This document shows positions 2,363 to 39,355 of a stretch of DNA of 64,000 bases, in pieces (positions within the stretch are counted from its first letter, which is position 1; each line of letters opens with the position of its first letter). Below the pieces are notes generated by a model that was not told where the DNA came from, searched no databases, and worked only from the letters and a program-made list of their open reading frames with translations. The position numbers and the translations under genes are program-made. Location: the NCBI GenBank assembly GCA_030765645.1, contig JAVCCE010000066.1, forward strand, positions 62,001 through 126,000. The letters run 5' to 3'. The DNA is from Candidatus Hinthialibacter antarcticus (GTDB taxonomy: Bacteria > Hinthialibacterota > Hinthialibacteria > Hinthialibacterales > Hinthialibacteraceae).

Positions 2363-5300
2363 ATGTCCAAACAATATTTCACCTTTTTTTATCTGCTTCT
2401 TTTTCTCCCCATAGCAAATAGTAACGCCGGAGTCGTCATCAATGAGATCATGTATCACCCCTCATCATTGAATAGCGATGATGAATACATCGAACTTTAT
2501 AATAACTCCACAACCACCACCGATATTTCCGGTTGGGCGTTTACCAACGGAATTCAATATGTCTTCCCGGAAGGCGCTTCGATTGCCGCAGGCGGATATC
2601 TAATTCTATCTGCATCTCCGGCTTCTTTTAGTCAATCTTATGGGGCCGAGTCTGCTTATGGTCCATTTGTAGGGCGACTCAGCAATGATGGCGAAAAAAT
2701 AGAATTCACCCGCTTTGATGGCTCCATCGCCGATTCATTTACTTATCGCGATGAATTGGGTTGGCCGGAAATTGCCGATGGATTTGGTTCCAGTATCGAA
2801 CGTATCCATCCCGATATGGCGCCTGATTTTGCTGACTCGTGGCGCGCATCTCCTGATTTAGGTACACCCGGCAAACGCAACCTGTCTCAAGTCGACGCCC
2901 CGCTTCCGATTGTGACCGATATCGTTCAATCGCCCGTGTCGCCAAGATCAACCGATACCGTGCATTTTCGCGTACGCGTCTTTCATCCCGTTCCATTGCA
3001 AGACGTTGGCATTTTTTATAAATCCGAAATCGCGGATGAATATCAATGGGCGCCGATGCATGATGATGGATTGAACGATGACGGCGTAGCGAACGACGGC
3101 GTCTTTGGCGGCGTATTACCAGCCTTTGCTCATGGAACCATCGTAGAATTTCGCGTCCTGGCGTTAGATGCAAATTCTGTTCAAGGTTGGTTTCCATTCA
3201 ATCAAACGGCGCCTTCCGCTCTCTATCGGGTCGATAACACTGAATACGACGCCAGTTTGCCTTTGTATAAAATTGTCATGCGTACGCAAGATGAAATCAT
3301 GCTGCGGACCCGGGATCTGCGCAGTAATGATGAAATCTCCTCGTCATTTCTCTATGGTCAAAGCATCTACTATCAGGTCGGCGTTCGTTTTCGCGGCAAA
3401 GGTTCACGATATGCGGAACCGAAAAACTACCGGGTCAATTTCTCAACAACAAAGCATTTTGGCAAGACGCGAAAATTGAATCTCAACGCGGTCAATGTTG
3501 ACCGTCAGTATATCGGCCTGGAAAGTTTTGAGCGTTTGGGACTGCCAGCGCCGCAAAAACAATTCGTCGCCGTCGATTTCAATGGCGTCGTGATTCCGCG
3601 CTACCTTGAAGTCGAACGCACAGGCCGCGATATGATGCAGCGCGCTTTTGGCGACGGCAACGGCAATTTATACCGAGGCGTTGAACAAGCCAACTTCGAT
3701 TATCGGGGAGAAAAATTCGAGCCATACATTCCAAACTATATCAAAGAGACGAACGAGTTGCGCAGAGACTTCAGTGATATCGTGCGGCTATGCGATGCGT
3801 TTTCACTCAGCAGCAATGAAGAGTTTCCCGTAAAGATTTCAGAATGGATTGATCTTCGCCAATGGATCCGCTGGTTTGCGTTGAAGCAAATATTGAATGA
3901 CCGCGAAGGCGGACTCTCCCGCGAGCGCGGCGATGATTACTTTATTTACCGCCCAAGCGATGACAACCGCTTCTACTTGCTCCCCTGGGACCAGGATTCG
4001 GTTTTAGCGCTTCCACTTGAGGCAGTCCACCATCATGGAACGCCCGCCGTTCAACGGCTATTGCGTCATCCTGATTTTGCGCGGTTTTATTATCAGGAAC
4101 TGCTATCAATTCTCGATGTTGAATTAACGCCGGAAGTCATGCAATCCATCATCAATGAAACGGCGCCGGTGAACGATGAAATCCAACGCGCTGATTTAAT
4201 GAATATCTTCATGGCAAACCGTAACGCAATCACCAATCAAATTCCTCAAGCGCTTACGGTCCATGTTGATCCGTCTGAGACCTCTTATGTCCGGCTTGTC
4301 GGCGAAGAAGAAGAGTGGCGCTATTTCCGTGGGCGCAGCCAACCGTCAATCAATCCAATGGATTGGACCGAACCTTCGTTTGACGATTCACAATGGGAAA
4401 CCGGCCCGGGAGGATTTGGCTATGGAGACGGCGACGATCGAACCGAATTGACTGACATGGAGGACCAATATACGTCTGTGTTTATTCGCAAAAAATTCCA
4501 ACTGGATGACCTAAGCGCCATCACAGGCATAACTCTCACGGCTTTATATGATGATTCATTTGTTGCCTACTTGAACGGACAGGAAATTGTCCGCGAGAAC
4601 TTCGACGGCGTTCCGTTTTTTGACCTTGAAGCCAGTGGAAATCATGAAGCGAATGGTTATGAATCATTTGACGCGAGTTCATTTACGTCTTTGTTACAGC
4701 CAGGCGAAAATTGCTTAGCGGTTGTTGGGTTGAATACGAATATCGGGAGTTCGGATTTCAGTTTAGCAATCAACTTGTATGCAAATATTGTTAATAAATC
4801 AATAACAAAGATCAGCGGTTTGACGGATGCCGTCTATACCCGTTGGGTAAATGTCAACGGAGAGCGCACCCAATACGAACCTTGGCTGGGCCAGTGGTCA
4901 TACGCGCGAGAACTCGAAGACGGTCGCCATGTTTTCAACATCGAAGCCATTGACGAAGCGGGCTTGATTGTTGATTCCACCCAGATTGTTATTTACCAAA
5001 ACGCGGCGGCGCCGCAAGGCGTTACCGAAGTAATCGGCGACCTGGTTTGGCGTAAAGCCGACAGCCCGATTCATGTGCCCCAGACGGTTTGGATTCCACC
5101 CGCATCATCACTGACCGTCGAAGCGGGCGTCGATGTACGGTTTGCGTCAGGCGCGGCGATTTGGGCGCAAGGCCTCTTGCGTACAGCGCCCGAGGGCGAT
5201 GAGCCAATCACCTTTTTCCCTGAACAAAACGGAACCACTTGGGGCGGAATCGTAATTGATAAAGTCGCGGCAGTCGTCACGATCAAGAATGTCAGTATCA

Positions 5301-6196
5301 CTGGCGCGTCGTCGGCCCGTATTGCCGGGCAAAACTACCCGGGCGTCATCACCGTCCATGAAGGTGTTGTAGACATTGAGAACTGCTCATTTTTTGAACT
5401 AAACAGCGTAGGCATTGATGCGATCAATTCCACAATCAATATTCATCATAACACCTTTAAAAATATGGGCGAGGCGGTGCACTGTACGAATTCATTCGCG
5501 CAAGTGACAAACAACTATTTTGAAAATATTTTAGGCTATAGCGACGCGATTGATTTTGACGGCAGCGGCGCGATGGAATCGCTCATTGCCTACAATACGA
5601 TCATGGGGTCAGAAGACGACGGGCTTGATTTGGGATACTCTCAAACCCGTATCGAAGGCAACATCATCAACGGTTGCGCTGATAAGGGCATATCAATGGA
5701 AGGCGATTCCATGCCTGTCGTCGTGAACAACATCGTCACCAATTGCGACATAGGCGTTGCGGTCAAAGACCGCTGTAATGCGCAAGTCGTTCACAACACC
5801 ATTGTGGATGTAAAAACCGGGGTTTCGATTTATGAAAAGAACTTGGGGCAGGGCGGCGCAATCGCCGAAGTATTGAATAATGTGATTTGGAACACACAGC
5901 AGAGTGTCGCCGTCGACGAAAAATCCAGTTTGAATCTTCGCTCAAACAACCTGGCGCCATTGCCGGGTTCCGCTGGCTCTTCAAATTTTTCTCTTGATCC
6001 AATGTTCGCCAATTTGGATTTCCGCGATTTTCATCTTCTTGAGAACTCCCCGCTCATCGACTCCGCAGAAGCCTCTGACGTTTCCACGGACGTCTATTTG
6101 AATTCACGCCCAAAAGGCAACGCTGCCGATATCGGCGCCGTCGAAAGCGAATTTTTCAGCGCCATAGAGGATTGGCTTCTCCATATAGAACCTTAG
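2363..6196 (+). CDS. Secreted surface protein: lamin-tail, CotH-like kinase and parallel beta-helix domains
   Basis: This 1277-residue protein starts with a signal peptide (about residues 1-22, ending SNAG). A lamin-tail domain follows at about 23-150, opening VVINEIMYHPSS and containing the typical DEYIELYNNS and GWAFTNG. The middle (about 290-620) resembles CotH: FRGKGSRYAEPKNYRVNFS and LPWDQDSVLAL match the CotH substrate loop and PWDxD active site of spore-coat-type protein kinases. Residues about 640-810 look like a galactose-binding jelly roll (DDSFVAYLNGQEIVRENF). The region from about 950 to 1230 is a right-handed beta-helix with NosD-like NNxIxxC repeats. The protein ends SAIEDWLLHIEP, a tail shared with the protein ending at 33324. 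It is probably exported to the cell surface. Substrate and role are unknown; LTD-CotH proteins are common in metagenomic bacteria. Confidence 0.88.
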   Translation: MSKQYFTFFYLLLFLPIANSNAGVVINEIMYHPSSLNSDDEYIELYNNSTTTTDISGWAFTNGIQYVFPEGASIAAGGYLILSASPASFSQSYGAESAYGPFVGRLSNDGEKIEFTRFDGSIADSFTYRDELGWPEIADGFGSSIERIHPDMAPDFADSWRASPDLGTPGKRNLSQVDAPLPIVTDIVQSPVSPRSTDTVHFRVRVFHPVPLQDVGIFYKSEIADEYQWAPMHDDGLNDDGVANDGVFGGVLPAFAHGTIVEFRVLALDANSVQGWFPFNQTAPSALYRVDNTEYDASLPLYKIVMRTQDEIMLRTRDLRSNDEISSSFLYGQSIYYQVGVRFRGKGSRYAEPKNYRVNFSTTKHFGKTRKLNLNAVNVDRQYIGLESFERLGLPAPQKQFVAVDFNGVVIPRYLEVERTGRDMMQRAFGDGNGNLYRGVEQANFDYRGEKFEPYIPNYIKETNELRRDFSDIVRLCDAFSLSSNEEFPVKISEWIDLRQWIRWFALKQILNDREGGLSRERGDDYFIYRPSDDNRFYLLPWDQDSVLALPLEAVHHHGTPAVQRLLRHPDFARFYYQELLSILDVELTPEVMQSIINETAPVNDEIQRADLMNIFMANRNAITNQIPQALTVHVDPSETSYVRLVGEEEEWRYFRGRSQPSINPMDWTEPSFDDSQWETGPGGFGYGDGDDRTELTDMEDQYTSVFIRKKFQLDDLSAITGITLTALYDDSFVAYLNGQEIVRENFDGVPFFDLEASGNHEANGYESFDASSFTSLLQPGENCLAVVGLNTNIGSSDFSLAINLYANIVNKSITKISGLTDAVYTRWVNVNGERTQYEPWLGQWSYARELEDGRHVFNIEAIDEAGLIVDSTQIVIYQNAAAPQGVTEVIGDLVWRKADSPIHVPQTVWIPPASSLTVEAGVDVRFASGAAIWAQGLLRTAPEGDEPITFFPEQNGTTWGGIVIDKVAAVVTIKNVSITGASSARIAGQNYPGVITVHEGVVDIENCSFFELNSVGIDAINSTINIHHNTFKNMGEAVHCTNSFAQVTNNYFENILGYSDAIDFDGSGAMESLIAYNTIMGSEDDGLDLGYSQTRIEGNIINGCADKGISMEGDSMPVVVNNIVTNCDIGVAVKDRCNAQVVHNTIVDVKTGVSIYEKNLGQGGAIAEVLNNVIWNTQQSVAVDEKSSLNLRSNNLAPLPGSAGSSNFSLDPMFANLDFRDFHLLENSPLIDSAEASDVSTDVYLNSRPKGNAADIGAVESEFFSAIEDWLLHIEP

Positions 6197-29937: not shown

Positions 29938-30603
29938 ATGACAGCTGCAATGGAGCGGATAGAGGCGACGGCCCATAAAGAAGAAGCCTCGGTCCAAATC
30001 GACCAAACAGAAGATCAAGCACTGATTCTTCTGATTGAAAGCGCACAGCAAGGCTGTGAGCAGTCCATTGAAGAACTGTTTAACCGATATTTCTTCCGCG
30101 TTTCCTCCTTCGTTAGGAGATATGTTGATTCACAGGAAGTAGAAGACGTAGCGCAAGAAGCATTTATTAAGGTATTTCGGAATCTGAACAATATTAAAAA
30201 AGTACAAGCCTTCGAGGGGTATTTGTTTCAAACGGCGAAAAACAGCTGCATCAGCTGGTTGCGCAAGAAAAAAAGGATGAGATCAATGCTTGATATCGTC
30301 TGGTACGCAGCAACAAACTGGCGCGACGCAAGTTCTGACCGGGAACCGCAACGCGCCGCCGCTATTGACGCCCTGATGGAACAACTCCCAGAGGTGAGCA
30401 AGTCTTATTTACACATGTTTTACGTTGAAAAGCGTTCGCGGGCTGAAATTGCAGCGGCGATGAATGAGTCCACTTCATCGGCCTACCGAAAATTGGCTGC
30501 GGCGAAAGCAAATTTGCTCGACGCCGCAAAGCGGATGAATGTAAAAATTGTCTTTAGCGGCAGGCATGATATGTCAGTTCAAGAAATAGAGGCGAAGTCA
30601 TGA
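29938..30603 (+). CDS. ECF-type RNA polymerase sigma factor
   Basis: This 221-residue protein has sigma region 2 at about residues 45-105 (LFNRYFFRVSSFVRRYVD, EVEDVAQEAFIKVFRNL) and region 4 at about 140-195 (LPEVSKSYLHMFYVEKRSRA, EIAAAMNESTSSAYRKLAAA). It lacks regions 1 and 3, as in extracytoplasmic-function sigma factors. AAGGGGA precedes the ATG. It overlaps the FecR-like gene by four bases (ATGA), the arrangement of a sigma with its cognate membrane regulator. It probably drives envelope-responsive genes, likely including its own operon. Confidence 0.93.
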   Translation: MTAAMERIEATAHKEEASVQIDQTEDQALILLIESAQQGCEQSIEELFNRYFFRVSSFVRRYVDSQEVEDVAQEAFIKVFRNLNNIKKVQAFEGYLFQTAKNSCISWLRKKKRMRSMLDIVWYAATNWRDASSDREPQRAAAIDALMEQLPEVSKSYLHMFYVEKRSRAEIAAAMNESTSSAYRKLAAAKANLLDAAKRMNVKIVFSGRHDMSVQEIEAKS

Positions 30604-31436
30604 AGTTGAAACCGGAACTGCTGTTGTTGTATAAAGAAGGCCGCCTTTCCCATGATGAAAAGCGCGAAGTCGAAGAATTTCTGTCGAACCAGCCCGATGA
30701 GAACCGCGTGTTTGGAGAGTTCGACGAACTGGGCGAATCACTTGAGTCATGGGGCCAGATGCACCGCGTCCGCGGTAATGTCTTGCAAGCAGTCAGACAA
30801 GAAAGCGCTCAGCCCAATGTGATTCATCTACCGCAATTTCGCGGCGCAGCGATTCCCACTGCTGTTGCGGCCTGTTTTGTGATTGCGCTCACAGGCCTGT
30901 ACTTTATGATGCAAAACCAAGACGCGACTTTCACCGAACTCGACCGACAAGGGACCGTAGTGATTTCGCAAAATCAGATTGATGTAGAATCTGATGGTTT
31001 TCTTTCCATCAAAATGGCCGATCAAAAATCGGTTACGGAATATGCGCCCAATACCATCGCAATGATTACAGGCGTACGTAGTCTCTTCATCGAAACAGGC
31101 AAGGTTTGGAACGAAGTCGGGAAAGACGATGGAAACCAATATACCGTCACAACTCAACACGGAACCATCATTGTCCTAGGGACGCAATTCGAAGTTGAAG
31201 TTAATAATGATAAAACGACTGTTCGCTTGTTAGAAGGCAGCGTTAAACTGGTTCACACAGACGGCAGCGAACAACTCTTAAACCCGAACGAAGAAGCAGT
31301 GATGAAACCTGCCTCGAAAATTCAACTTACACAAATTACAGCCGATGATATTGCTAAATGGCGTGGCTCATTTATCGGGAAGGGATTCACTACACGAGAC
31401 GTGCCCAATGTGTTACAACAAACAAAAAATCGCTAA
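30600..31436 (+). CDS. FecR-domain membrane regulator (putative anti-sigma factor)
   Basis: This 278-residue protein has an 80-residue cytoplasmic helical N terminus, which starts LKPELLLLYKEGRLSHDEKR and lacks a zinc HxxxCxxC motif. One membrane span follows (about residues 84-104, IPTAVAACFVIALTGLYFMM), then a periplasmic FecR domain. SLFIETGKVWNEVGK, TVTTQHGTIIVLGTQFEVEV and VRLLEGSVKLVH are typical FecR strands. It likely holds the sigma factor at 29938 until an extracytoplasmic signal arrives. The downstream secreted beta-propeller gene starts inside its 3' end. Confidence 0.92.
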   Translation: MKLKPELLLLYKEGRLSHDEKREVEEFLSNQPDENRVFGEFDELGESLESWGQMHRVRGNVLQAVRQESAQPNVIHLPQFRGAAIPTAVAACFVIALTGLYFMMQNQDATFTELDRQGTVVISQNQIDVESDGFLSIKMADQKSVTEYAPNTIAMITGVRSLFIETGKVWNEVGKDDGNQYTVTTQHGTIIVLGTQFEVEVNNDKTTVRLLEGSVKLVHTDGSEQLLNPNEEAVMKPASKIQLTQITADDIAKWRGSFIGKGFTTRDVPNVLQQTKNR

Positions 31437-33324
31437 AAGCGACTCTTTTTTTAATGCTCTTTTTGTAATTAAAGGCCTCCGCCTTTTGGGTGGAGGTTTA
31501 TTTTTCTTTTTATTTACAGTGAGTTTATTTAAAGCTGAAGCTGAAGTTCCTTTTGTTGAATCCGTACAGTCTCATGTTCGACTCGAAAATCTCCTCACTG
31601 GAATGGTTGAATGGCCAGACGGTTCTATCATCGTTGCAGAAAATGATTCTGGTGAAATATCACGCCTTCGCACCAATAGCCTGTTTTCAACGCTGCGCAT
31701 CGACACTTTAATGACAGGATTCACTGATCCGGTCGCGCTTGCATTTGATTCAGGCGGGCGCCTTCTCGTCGGTGAGCGCTCGACAGGAAGAGTCATTGCA
31801 GTCGGGAACAATCAACGGGAAACTCTTTTTCGCGGCTTGAATGATTTGGCCTCAATCCGCACCGACCAACTCGATAACATCTATTATGTTGAAATGGACC
31901 CGGGGCGAATTTCCCGCTATAGCCTGCGTTCAAATGGACACACATTGATCCAGGACGGCCTTTCATTTCCCAGCGATTCATTCGTATTTGGTCGTAGTTT
32001 AATGACATCTGAACTCGTTGATCGTTCCGGTATTTCGGGACGAGTTACAATGGAACCGATTGCAGTTGACCAAGACCCGATTCCATTGCCGCCAATCTTT
32101 GAATGGTCAATTGATGACGCGTTTATTGACCCGATTCGTTTCGTTCAGGACCCCCGCAATAACTCTCACGCTTTACTTAGCGTTCGCCATGTAGATAGAA
32201 CCATCGCCGGAATCCAATCCCCTGGCGCGATATACCAAATCAATCTGATTACTGGCAAGGTTGAAGGTTTATTCGTCGAAGATTTATACGGCCCGACTGA
32301 CATGGTGGCGAATGAAAACGGATGTTTTGTTTTAGAAGAACATGCGGAACGAATCAGTTTTTATGACTGGTCGGGCAAGCGCAATGTACTTTGGGACGGC
32401 TTGGGCGCCCCAATCGCTTTTACCGTAATTCCTAACCAGATAAACCGCTATTTAATTGCAGAAACCGCGCCCCACGCCGGGATTTCGTCGATTGTGAGCC
32501 AAATTGTCAGACCCAGCACGATGCCCGCTGAATTAGAAAATGAAAGTATTGGCAGCATTTTGGCAACAACCAAGTTGTTTCTTTCCATCACAAATTTAGG
32601 TGAAATTGTCGTAGTGAATGATGACGGAACCTATGAAACATTGACCTCGCAATTGTTCGCTCCGGGAAAACTGGTCAAGGGCGAAGGCAACAGCATTTGG
32701 GCTTACGACTTAATCGGCGAATTAAAGAAACTCAACAGCGACACCGGGAAGGTCATGCAAAGCGCAAGAGGCGCTCAGGTTGGAATGGTTGACTTCGACG
32801 TCGAAGTCGACGGCTCTTTAGAGACGGCCTATGCGTTGGATGCGCTGGGCGATATTTGGCAATACGCCACAATACGCAACGTGTTTACTCCAGTATCCAT
32901 TCTCACGCTTGAGTTCGCGGATGATTATAATAGTCCGCTTACGCCCGTCTTTGCCCGCGTTGCCGATGAAGGCTTTGTCATTGCGATGAACGACCTTGAT
33001 GGAAGCATCGTCTGGATTGACGACAATGGCGGCCAAGAGGTCATCCATACCGGATTTCGAGAGATAACGCAATTACATGCGGAATCGCGTCTTAACATAA
33101 CCGCTCTATCAAATCGTGGATGGCTGCGGACGATTCGTTTAATGTATCCAAGCGATATTCCTGAACCGACGCCGACGCCGTTTATCACTCCAACGCCAGT
33201 TTTGCCAACTCGCACACCGACGCCAAACCGTCCCGGGACGCCGTCTCCAACCCCAATTCGACCAACACCGACTCCAACAGAAGTCACTTCGATCATTGAC
33301 TGGTTGCTTCACGTCGATCACTAA
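31408..33324 (+). CDS. Secreted beta-propeller protein with Pro/Thr linker and DWLLH tail
   Basis: I chose the ATG at 31408, which gives 638 residues with a Cys/Lys N terminus before the hydrophobic segment LRLLGGGLFFFLFTVSLFKA; a TTG nearer the signal is possible and the start is uncertain. The mature part repeats strands such as MVEWPDGSIIVAENDSGEIS, LAFDSGGRLLVGERSTGRVI and LDNIYYVEMDPGRISRYSL, consistent with an NHL/SMP-30-like propeller. A 45-residue Pro/Thr-rich linker (nt about 33160-33285) precedes the C-terminal SIIDWLLHVDH, which matches the tail of the protein ending at 6196. It is cotranscribed with the sigma/FecR pair, overlapping by 29 bases. A surface-anchored sensor or effector is inferred. 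Confidence 0.78.
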   Translation: MCYNKQKIAKSDSFFNALFVIKGLRLLGGGLFFFLFTVSLFKAEAEVPFVESVQSHVRLENLLTGMVEWPDGSIIVAENDSGEISRLRTNSLFSTLRIDTLMTGFTDPVALAFDSGGRLLVGERSTGRVIAVGNNQRETLFRGLNDLASIRTDQLDNIYYVEMDPGRISRYSLRSNGHTLIQDGLSFPSDSFVFGRSLMTSELVDRSGISGRVTMEPIAVDQDPIPLPPIFEWSIDDAFIDPIRFVQDPRNNSHALLSVRHVDRTIAGIQSPGAIYQINLITGKVEGLFVEDLYGPTDMVANENGCFVLEEHAERISFYDWSGKRNVLWDGLGAPIAFTVIPNQINRYLIAETAPHAGISSIVSQIVRPSTMPAELENESIGSILATTKLFLSITNLGEIVVVNDDGTYETLTSQLFAPGKLVKGEGNSIWAYDLIGELKKLNSDTGKVMQSARGAQVGMVDFDVEVDGSLETAYALDALGDIWQYATIRNVFTPVSILTLEFADDYNSPLTPVFARVADEGFVIAMNDLDGSIVWIDDNGGQEVIHTGFREITQLHAESRLNITALSNRGWLRTIRLMYPSDIPEPTPTPFITPTPVLPTRTPTPNRPGTPSPTPIRPTPTPTEVTSIIDWLLHVDH

Positions 33325-38307: not shown

Positions 38308-38332
38308 TCTATTTCATTTGGAGGATGTAGAA

Positions 38333-39355
38333 ATGAGATTTAAGAATTTTTTTGTCTTGTCAGCGGCCGTTTGCTTGCTGATGCCGGTTCATGCACAAAC
38401 CGTAGATGAAATGGTCGATGCATTTCTTAGTTTCGACATGACCGCAGAAGGCCCCTGGTCAGACGTCGATCTCACAACGACGACTGTTCCTAAAGTAGGG
38501 AATGGTTCCATCACGCTAGATGGAAGTATTTCTTCTGGTGAATATGGCGGCTATGAAGGCACCGAAATTGTTCCTGGCAAGAACGCCTGGATACTCGACT
38601 TCGCCAGCGCCAAAGAGTGGGAAGGGCCGGACGATAATAGTTTTACCTTCTACCTTGCTTATGATGATGACAATTTGTATCTGGGCGTATCTGTTAAAGA
38701 TGACGTGGTACGTTCGAATGACCCGCCAGCAGCGTTTTGGAAAGATGACGCCATTGAAATCGTGATGGACCCCAGTAATTCCCGCTATGACTACAATACC
38801 GATTCAGTAAATAATCTGTATGGCGGTCACTGCTATTTTAACTGGGAAGGTTTGATCTCGGCTTTTGATTACGATACGGGTCTTCCATTTAACGCGGGGA
38901 CAGAAGAAGCCCCTACATTCCGCTGGGGCGGCGCTTCAGAATGGACGTATGCTGAAGACGGCGATATCTATGGAATCGGCATTGAAACGGCTGATGGCTG
39001 GGCTGTTGAAGTTCGAATCGGCAAAGCGACGCTCGAAGATACTGAAGCGGGCGTAACTTTGACTCCGGGAACGACGATGGCGTTTAACCTGGGCGTTGAT
39101 GATGACGACGGCGCTGATCTCGCCATTCAATACTTCTGGGCCAGCCGCGTTCGCGCAATCGGCGCGACGCCAGACGATGAAAATTGGGACCTTCTTCTTG
39201 AAGAGGAAATCGCCAATAAAGATTATCTTGATCCTGATTCACTAGCGGCTTTCTGGGAAGTTGGTATCAATGAAACTGGTCGTTTGTCGCGCGCCGGCGG
39301 CGGAGAAATTATTCTTGGTGAATCCACTGAGATCAATGACTGGCAGTTGCAATAA
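38333..39355 (+). CDS. Secreted protein with carbohydrate-binding family 9-like domain
   Basis: The start ATG at 38333 has GGAGG about 8 bases upstream. A signal peptide (MRFKNFFVLSAAVCLLMPVH, cut near HAQ) leads a 340-residue product. Residues about 45-270 match the DOMON/CBM9-like fold used for carbohydrate recognition: ITLDGSISSGEYGGYEG, TFYLAYDDDNLYLGVSVKDD, FWKDDAIEIVMDPSNSRYD and WAVEVRIGKATLED. No catalytic domain is present. It ends STEINDWQLQ, faintly like the DWLLH tails elsewhere. Role is binding or structural, inferred only. Confidence 0.82.
   Translation: MRFKNFFVLSAAVCLLMPVHAQTVDEMVDAFLSFDMTAEGPWSDVDLTTTTVPKVGNGSITLDGSISSGEYGGYEGTEIVPGKNAWILDFASAKEWEGPDDNSFTFYLAYDDDNLYLGVSVKDDVVRSNDPPAAFWKDDAIEIVMDPSNSRYDYNTDSVNNLYGGHCYFNWEGLISAFDYDTGLPFNAGTEEAPTFRWGGASEWTYAEDGDIYGIGIETADGWAVEVRIGKATLEDTEAGVTLTPGTTMAFNLGVDDDDGADLAIQYFWASRVRAIGATPDDENWDLLLEEEIANKDYLDPDSLAAFWEVGINETGRLSRAGGGEIILGESTEINDWQLQ

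Follow-up and report, generated by a model that had tools for sequence, protein, structure and literature searches.

A nine-residue C-terminal tail shared by unrelated exported proteins of Candidatus Hinthialibacter antarcticus and its relatives

The window, that is, the whole stretch of 64,000 nucleotides analysed here, contains three genes for exported proteins that terminate in similar short tails. The relevant features are as follows:

2363-6196, forward strand: CotH/LTD/beta-helix protein, with signal peptide, LTD, CotH, beta-helix, choice-of-anchor Q and tail
6026..6148, forward strand: choice-of-anchor Q domain (NF041518), directly 5' of the CotH protein tail
6158..6193, forward strand: C-terminal tail of the CotH protein, SAIEDWLLHIEP, with a Trp that is invariant in ortholog alignment A1
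6158-6184, forward strand: core nonamer of this tail, SAIEDWLLH
31408..33324, forward strand: propeller-like exported protein with tail, weakly similar to ScyD/ScyE
33163..33285, forward strand: Pro/Thr-rich linker preceding the propeller protein tail
33286..33321, forward strand: C-terminal tail of the propeller-like protein, TSIIDWLLHVDH
33286-33312, forward strand: core of this tail, TSIIDWLLH
38318-39355 (also listed as 38333..39355), forward strand: exported protein with a CBM9 domain (CBM9_1, E 1.1e-10), third carrier in the window
39326..39352, forward strand: tail of the CBM9 protein, TEINDWQLQ

The translation of the CotH gene terminates with FFSAIEDWLLHIEP and that of the propeller-like gene (31345-33324; the start at 31408 is the likelier one) with TEVTSIIDWLLHVDH, each directly followed by the stop codon. 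Thus, the DWLLH-type tails ending at 6196 and 33324, which the original prediction had described, are indeed present, as are the hydrophobic N-terminal signals of both proteins and the Pro/Thr-rich linker in front of the propeller tail (68% P/T/S among the 25 residues preceding it). In the CotH protein, the match to the choice-of-anchor Q model (E 1.2e-07 for the whole protein, 2.2e-09 for the last 60 residues) ends 15 residues before the stop. The signal peptide of the CBM9 protein, as read from the translation, is MRFKNFFVLSAAVCLLMPVHA. Directly upstream of the propeller gene, genes for an ECF-type RNA polymerase sigma factor (29938-30603) and a FecR-like anti-sigma protein (30600-31436) were recognized from their translations only; in FecIR systems, the position held here by the tail-bearing propeller gene is usually that of a TonB-dependent receptor.

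A degenerate DNA pattern for DW[LF][LF]H (GAYTGGYTNYTNCAY) matched twice in the window, compared with 0.02 matches expected in shuffled sequence. In the whole genome it matched 10 times, and only three of these matches lie at protein ends, the third being that of a subtilase ending in AKTPDWFLH. The literal DWLLH ending is confined to the CotH and propeller proteins. According to the original prediction, finding the tail in these two proteins only would have refuted the idea of a signal, and a genome scan restricted to the exact string could have led to that verdict; a relaxed pattern revealed that the string is merely a slice of a larger motif. The exact DWLLH was therefore discarded as too narrow, being one form of a C-terminal nonamer. 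For ∼0.8 Mb of the genome (contigs C11, C66, C74, C70, and C67), genes were called and the ends of signal-bearing proteins compared, which yielded similar ends such as TDVVDWALY, SSVSDWMLN, TAINDYMLY, NDVDEWNLY, ADVSEWSIH, TAIQQWSLY, and TDIQNWMMY. A nine-column profile trained on ends from the same genome gave the consensus [ST]-x-[IV]-x-[DEN]-W-x-L-[YH], and in the parts of the genome read, 47 proteins carry such a tail. Conserved among them are the Trp (41 tails), [IV] (45), Leu at -2 (34), and Tyr at -1 (32); the core forms the exact C-terminal end in 36 tails, and about a quarter have one to six residues beyond it. Of the match over the last eight residues claimed originally, the part within the core thus holds, but the residues trailing it in the two window proteins (IEP and VDH) are not conserved and resemble each other by chance. 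Because some of the 47 loci were chosen by the DNA pattern, the residue frequencies are biased in favor of the consensus. The AlphaFold prediction stayed below a pLDDT of 50 in the region of the tail and hence carries no information on its structure.

At a threshold of 7, the profile found tails on 19 of 136 secreted proteins in the ∼0.8 Mb, versus 0.35 expected when the same tails were shuffled, and on three of 368 non-secreted ones. Applied to held-out fragments of relatives from families f1 (to which the genome belongs) and f2, it matched 6 of 84 proteins (G004), 3 of 28 (f2), and 1 of 22 (G005), with at most 0.2 expected in each case. When the tails were removed, the 47 carriers fell into 29 groups without a BLAST link, the largest cluster comprising 17 proteins; represented are CotH/LTD, LamG, FG-GAP, PQQ and WD40 propeller, and CBM9 proteins, an Hcp-domain protein, a subtilase, and a heparinase-like lyase. 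Codons at the fixed positions vary freely among synonyms (ACG/ACC/ACT/ACA; GTT/GTC/ATT/ATC; TTG/CTG/CTC), which indicates that selection acts on the peptide rather than on DNA or RNA. Two individual proteins may be mentioned. One (L024:11590-12756) combines a signal peptide, the Hcp domain of type VI effectors, and the variant tail ASVGSFRVY, which implies that an Hcp-fold domain is exported by Sec; the other (L015:13264-15174) is a bacterial protein with a signal peptide, 13 WD40 repeats, and the variant tail SSIENALLY.

The original prediction had also suggested asking whether such tails are restricted to proteins with signal peptides. In genomes G000 and G004, the tail was found on 27 of 199 non-lipoproteins with a type I signal peptide, on none of 22 lipoproteins, on none of 24 pilin-like proteins, and on 5 of 525 proteins without a called signal. 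Carriers scored as non-secreted are in part proteins whose start was placed too late, for instance the CBM9 protein of the window. In seven other genomes, 22 of the 23 complete pattern-matching open reading frames of at least 100 residues encode a signal peptide, and one carrier from family f4 begins with MKRRDMIQLGLGSLAYF, which looks like a Tat signal. The two stop-terminated matches from outside genomes end frames of only 16 and 27 residues. Signal peptides were called by a simple hydrophobicity rule and not by SignalP, which is a limitation. As far as can be judged from such sequence-based calls, the tail is restricted almost exclusively to exported non-lipoproteins; about 85% of the secreted proteins lack it. 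Its recurrence on many unrelated and almost only exported proteins throughout the lineage largely supports the notion of a C-terminal sorting or secretion signal.

To follow the tail across bacteria, 290 genomes were searched for the DNA pattern [ST]x[IVM]xxWx[LIVMF]Y-stop and for control patterns, and the sites were tallied; this 30-base pattern was used instead of a TGG-only one, which had proven too loose on named genomes. The six genomes of family f1 contain 24, 32, 23, 42, 16, and 39 sites (controls 0-1), in total 176 versus 3 control sites; the enrichment over control in these six genomes is 10- to 50-fold. Three f2 genomes have 7, 5, and 9 sites (controls 0), the f3 genome 6, three f4 genomes 21, 10, and 8, and the f5 genome 3 (controls 0-2). 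For the class as a whole, this amounts to 245 versus 6 control sites in 14 genomes, every one of which lies above its control. Nearly all other bacteria among the 290 genomes gave 0-2 sites, the same as the controls, and nothing was found in the viral contigs searched. Outside the class, two f17 genomes (8 and 3 sites, controls 0) and one f214 genome (5 sites, control 1) stood out; where their sites end long frames, the proteins are mostly exported (SSVSDWALY, SSVADWSIY, TSVKEWSLY). An apparent enrichment in G060 was rejected, as most of its count stems from ten identical TSIDQWFIY-stop sites on contig C1, copies of one repeated sequence that is probably a mobile element. The relatives include 'Candidatus Omnitrophota' Zod_Metabat.949 (G001), 'Candidatus Omnitrophota' Ch114 (G002), and 'bacterium RI_285' (G004). 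A GroEL tree places the class near Verrucomicrobia and Lentisphaerae; since the phylum labels given by submitters may be wrong, no phylum is claimed for it. Sumerlaeota were considered as a second carrier phylum and dismissed, with no sites in three named genomes. CotH proteins of named Sumerlaeota (L192, L225, L239, and L271) end in AGVGRWTYYR, SAVARRWDIYR, TGVRRWREY, and GNWSGWILH, loosely similar RW...Y tails in which a basic residue precedes the Trp or lies close to it; they may possibly be a divergent version of the tag. In the GroEL tree, both f17 genomes fall together with two of the three named Sumerlaeota, but so weakly (84/69) that the phylum of f17 remains unsettled.

Orthologs and paralogs of the CotH protein (45-53% identity) have the same domain order but different linkers, and the sequence just before their ends differs, while the tail is retained (TTVTDWILK, NAVKTWDLHY, TMIYDWGLMR, TSIEKWMLHP, STDIRAWETY); in the five-row alignment A1, the Trp column is invariant. 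To judge by its name, the choice-of-anchor Q domain in front of it should be followed by anchors of different kinds. In G011, the f5 genome, the corresponding CotH region runs on into a P/T linker (PTPTPTFSPTPTF) and then into a dockerin (DLNRDGVVDATDLLILARL...LLDFAQYW), so that a dockerin occupies the slot that is taken by the tail in the window protein. This CotH-type protein of G011 (L142:13900-15300 on contig C1) is distributed over two frames, called with 1308 and 374 residues, of which the second ends with the P/T linker and the dockerin; the split may be due to a frameshift or an assembly error. The tail itself sits on Pro/Thr-rich stalks in the propeller protein and in f4 proteins. Dockerin matches number 1-10 per genome in f1/f2 and 8-35 in f3-f5, and dockerin-like ends in the sister families (...LLLLIADWARG and ...FVQEWLVADSEP) have the same [IV]xxW spacing as the tail. 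Secreted proteins encoded on contigs C16 and C11 of the f4 genome G012 (L151-L168) end in dockerin-like repeats and, in one case or more, in a PEP-CTERM-like tail; dockerin, exosortase, and WxLY-type tails thus seem to coexist in this genome.

Among the searched Pfam and NCBIfam models, including those for PEP-CTERM/exosortase and dockerin, none explains the tail, in line with the original prediction, which knew of no named signal with this sequence and would have been refuted by a match to a known dockerin, PEP-CTERM, or Por variant. For ten carriers, the terminal 60 residues gave no Pfam or NCBIfam match covering it (NCBIfam E up to 10), and the NCBIfam CTERM models did not match these ten C-termini at E up to 10. 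Full-text literature searches, tail strings included, retrieved no paper describing it. The C terminus of PEP-CTERM proteins consists of a PEP (or variant) motif, a transmembrane helix, and basic residues, in this order, whereas the tail has no PEP motif, no transmembrane helix, and no basic end but consists of nine polar and aromatic residues on soluble proteins. The two are alike in forming a short region of C-terminal homology that occurs on dozens of diverse signal-peptide proteins per genome and is distributed patchily over lineages (PMC1569441). Exosortase (PF09721) was not detected in any of the nine f1/f2 genomes, which are the genomes of the order and all have the tail; the tail is therefore independent of this enzyme. 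A mutual exclusion of the two across the class was ruled out, as the enzyme is present in all four f3/f4 genomes and f4 has both. Cargo of type IX secretion likewise bears a C-terminal recognition element on Sec-exported proteins, but as a folded domain of about 40-80 residues or more (PMC11969387); the tail comprises nine residues and matches no Por_Secre_tail-type model. SprA/Sov (PF14349) was not detected in any of the 14 genomes, nor in the control genomes, so that a positive control is lacking. GlyGly-CTERM/rhombosortase and MYXO-CTERM/myxosortase are comparable in that they, too, rely on sorting tags at the C terminus, and their processing is many-to-one (PMC3237569; PMC11980579). Those tags require Gly-Gly or an invariant Cys with a membrane helix and basic residues behind it, and the tail has neither. 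An LPXTG/sortase signal consists of an LPXTG-like motif, a membrane helix, and a basic tail; by its composition, the tail lacks both the motif and the helix. Type I dockerins, calcium-binding EF-hand pairs of about 55 residues, are similarly C-terminal and often follow P/T linkers, in the f5 relative at the very place of the tail, but the tail contains no EF-hand pair, and Dockerin_1 did not match in the carriers scanned. Substrates of type I secretion have no N-terminal signal peptide, in contrast to the 22 of 23 complete carriers mentioned above. Finally, the outer-membrane beta-signal has alternating hydrophobic residues at -3, -5, -7, and -9 and a terminal aromatic residue; the tail has D/E/N at -5 and T/S at -9, and its carriers are not barrels.

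What can be read from the sequences is the motif, its selection at the amino acid level, its restriction to exported non-lipoproteins, its place behind anchor-type domains and linkers, and its distribution. That a receptor reads the tail, with surface delivery or docking as the outcome, is inferred. The interpretation we favor (with a probability of roughly 0.7) is that the nine residues constitute a linear C-terminal targeting tag, recognized by a receptor in the envelope and serving delivery to, or holding at, the cell surface; counted against it are the lack of any experiment, of a receptor, translocon, or protease linked to the tail, and of the tail itself on most secreted proteins. Ordinary signal peptides would take the carriers through the inner membrane, via Sec and in some cases apparently via Tat. 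In the envelope, the protruding terminal tail, which some carriers present on a Pro/Thr-rich stalk, would then be bound by a dedicated receptor or outer-membrane translocon, which would bring the carrier to the surface or retain it there. In the architecture of the carriers, the tail fills the slot held elsewhere by a dockerin, a PEP-CTERM, or a type IX C-terminal domain.

The main rival to this interpretation is that the tail addresses an outer-membrane secretion machine (e.g., type II) and marks release instead of surface docking. It would suit carriers that are exported hydrolases, lectin-like, and propeller proteins, the absence of the tail from lipoproteins, and the many pilin-like proteins of the genome; yet the choice-of-anchor and dockerin neighbors point to attachment, and type II cargo is not known to have a short conserved linear C-terminal signal, which leaves release as possible but rather unlikely. 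Considerably less credible is a shrunken dockerin, of which only the last helix of a repeat would have survived the loss of the calcium loops. The shared [IV]xxW spacing and the lower number of dockerins in f1/f2 than in f3-f5 could be understood in this manner; however, T/S-x rather than a Leu-rich helix precedes the core, tails occur without any EF-hand remnant, and f4 has dockerins and tails side by side. About equally weak is the idea that the tail is recognized in the periplasm by a C-terminal protease or a quality-control factor and thereby governs protein lifetime: the hydrophobic or aromatic carboxy terminus is often free (36 of 47), but about a quarter of the tails continue beyond the core, and dozens of large carbohydrate-active and structural proteins would be strange bearers of a degradation tag. 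That the carriers share the tail by chance or by common ancestry is already contradicted and retains next to no plausibility, because the two DWLLH endings and the one cluster of 17 carriers, which could be cited in its favor, are set against 29 unrelated groups, the enrichment in six genomes, and tails on exported proteins in two other families.

Within the libraries and papers searched, the tail is thus a real but undescribed C-terminal tag: its kind, a C-terminal sorting signal, is known, whereas its form (nine residues, without helix or domain) and its lineage are new as far as could be determined. C-terminal tags have repeatedly exposed secretion or anchoring systems (LPXTG/sortase, PEP-CTERM/exosortase, GlyGly-CTERM/rhombosortase, and type IX), and the present one is clear by sequence, has no name in the libraries searched, and does without the membrane helix or folded domain of the others. 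With somewhat less confidence than the targeting function itself, but still as the probable case, the tail may represent an undescribed diderm targeting pathway with its own receptor or translocon, which would operate across the class and in two or more additional lineages, with dozens of the exported proteins of each genome being sent to the surface in this way. For uncultured bacteria, the tail also opens a way into the surface proteome: dozens of proteins without known function now form a single cargo class, and co-occurrence with tail-bearing proteins can be used to look for the receptor.
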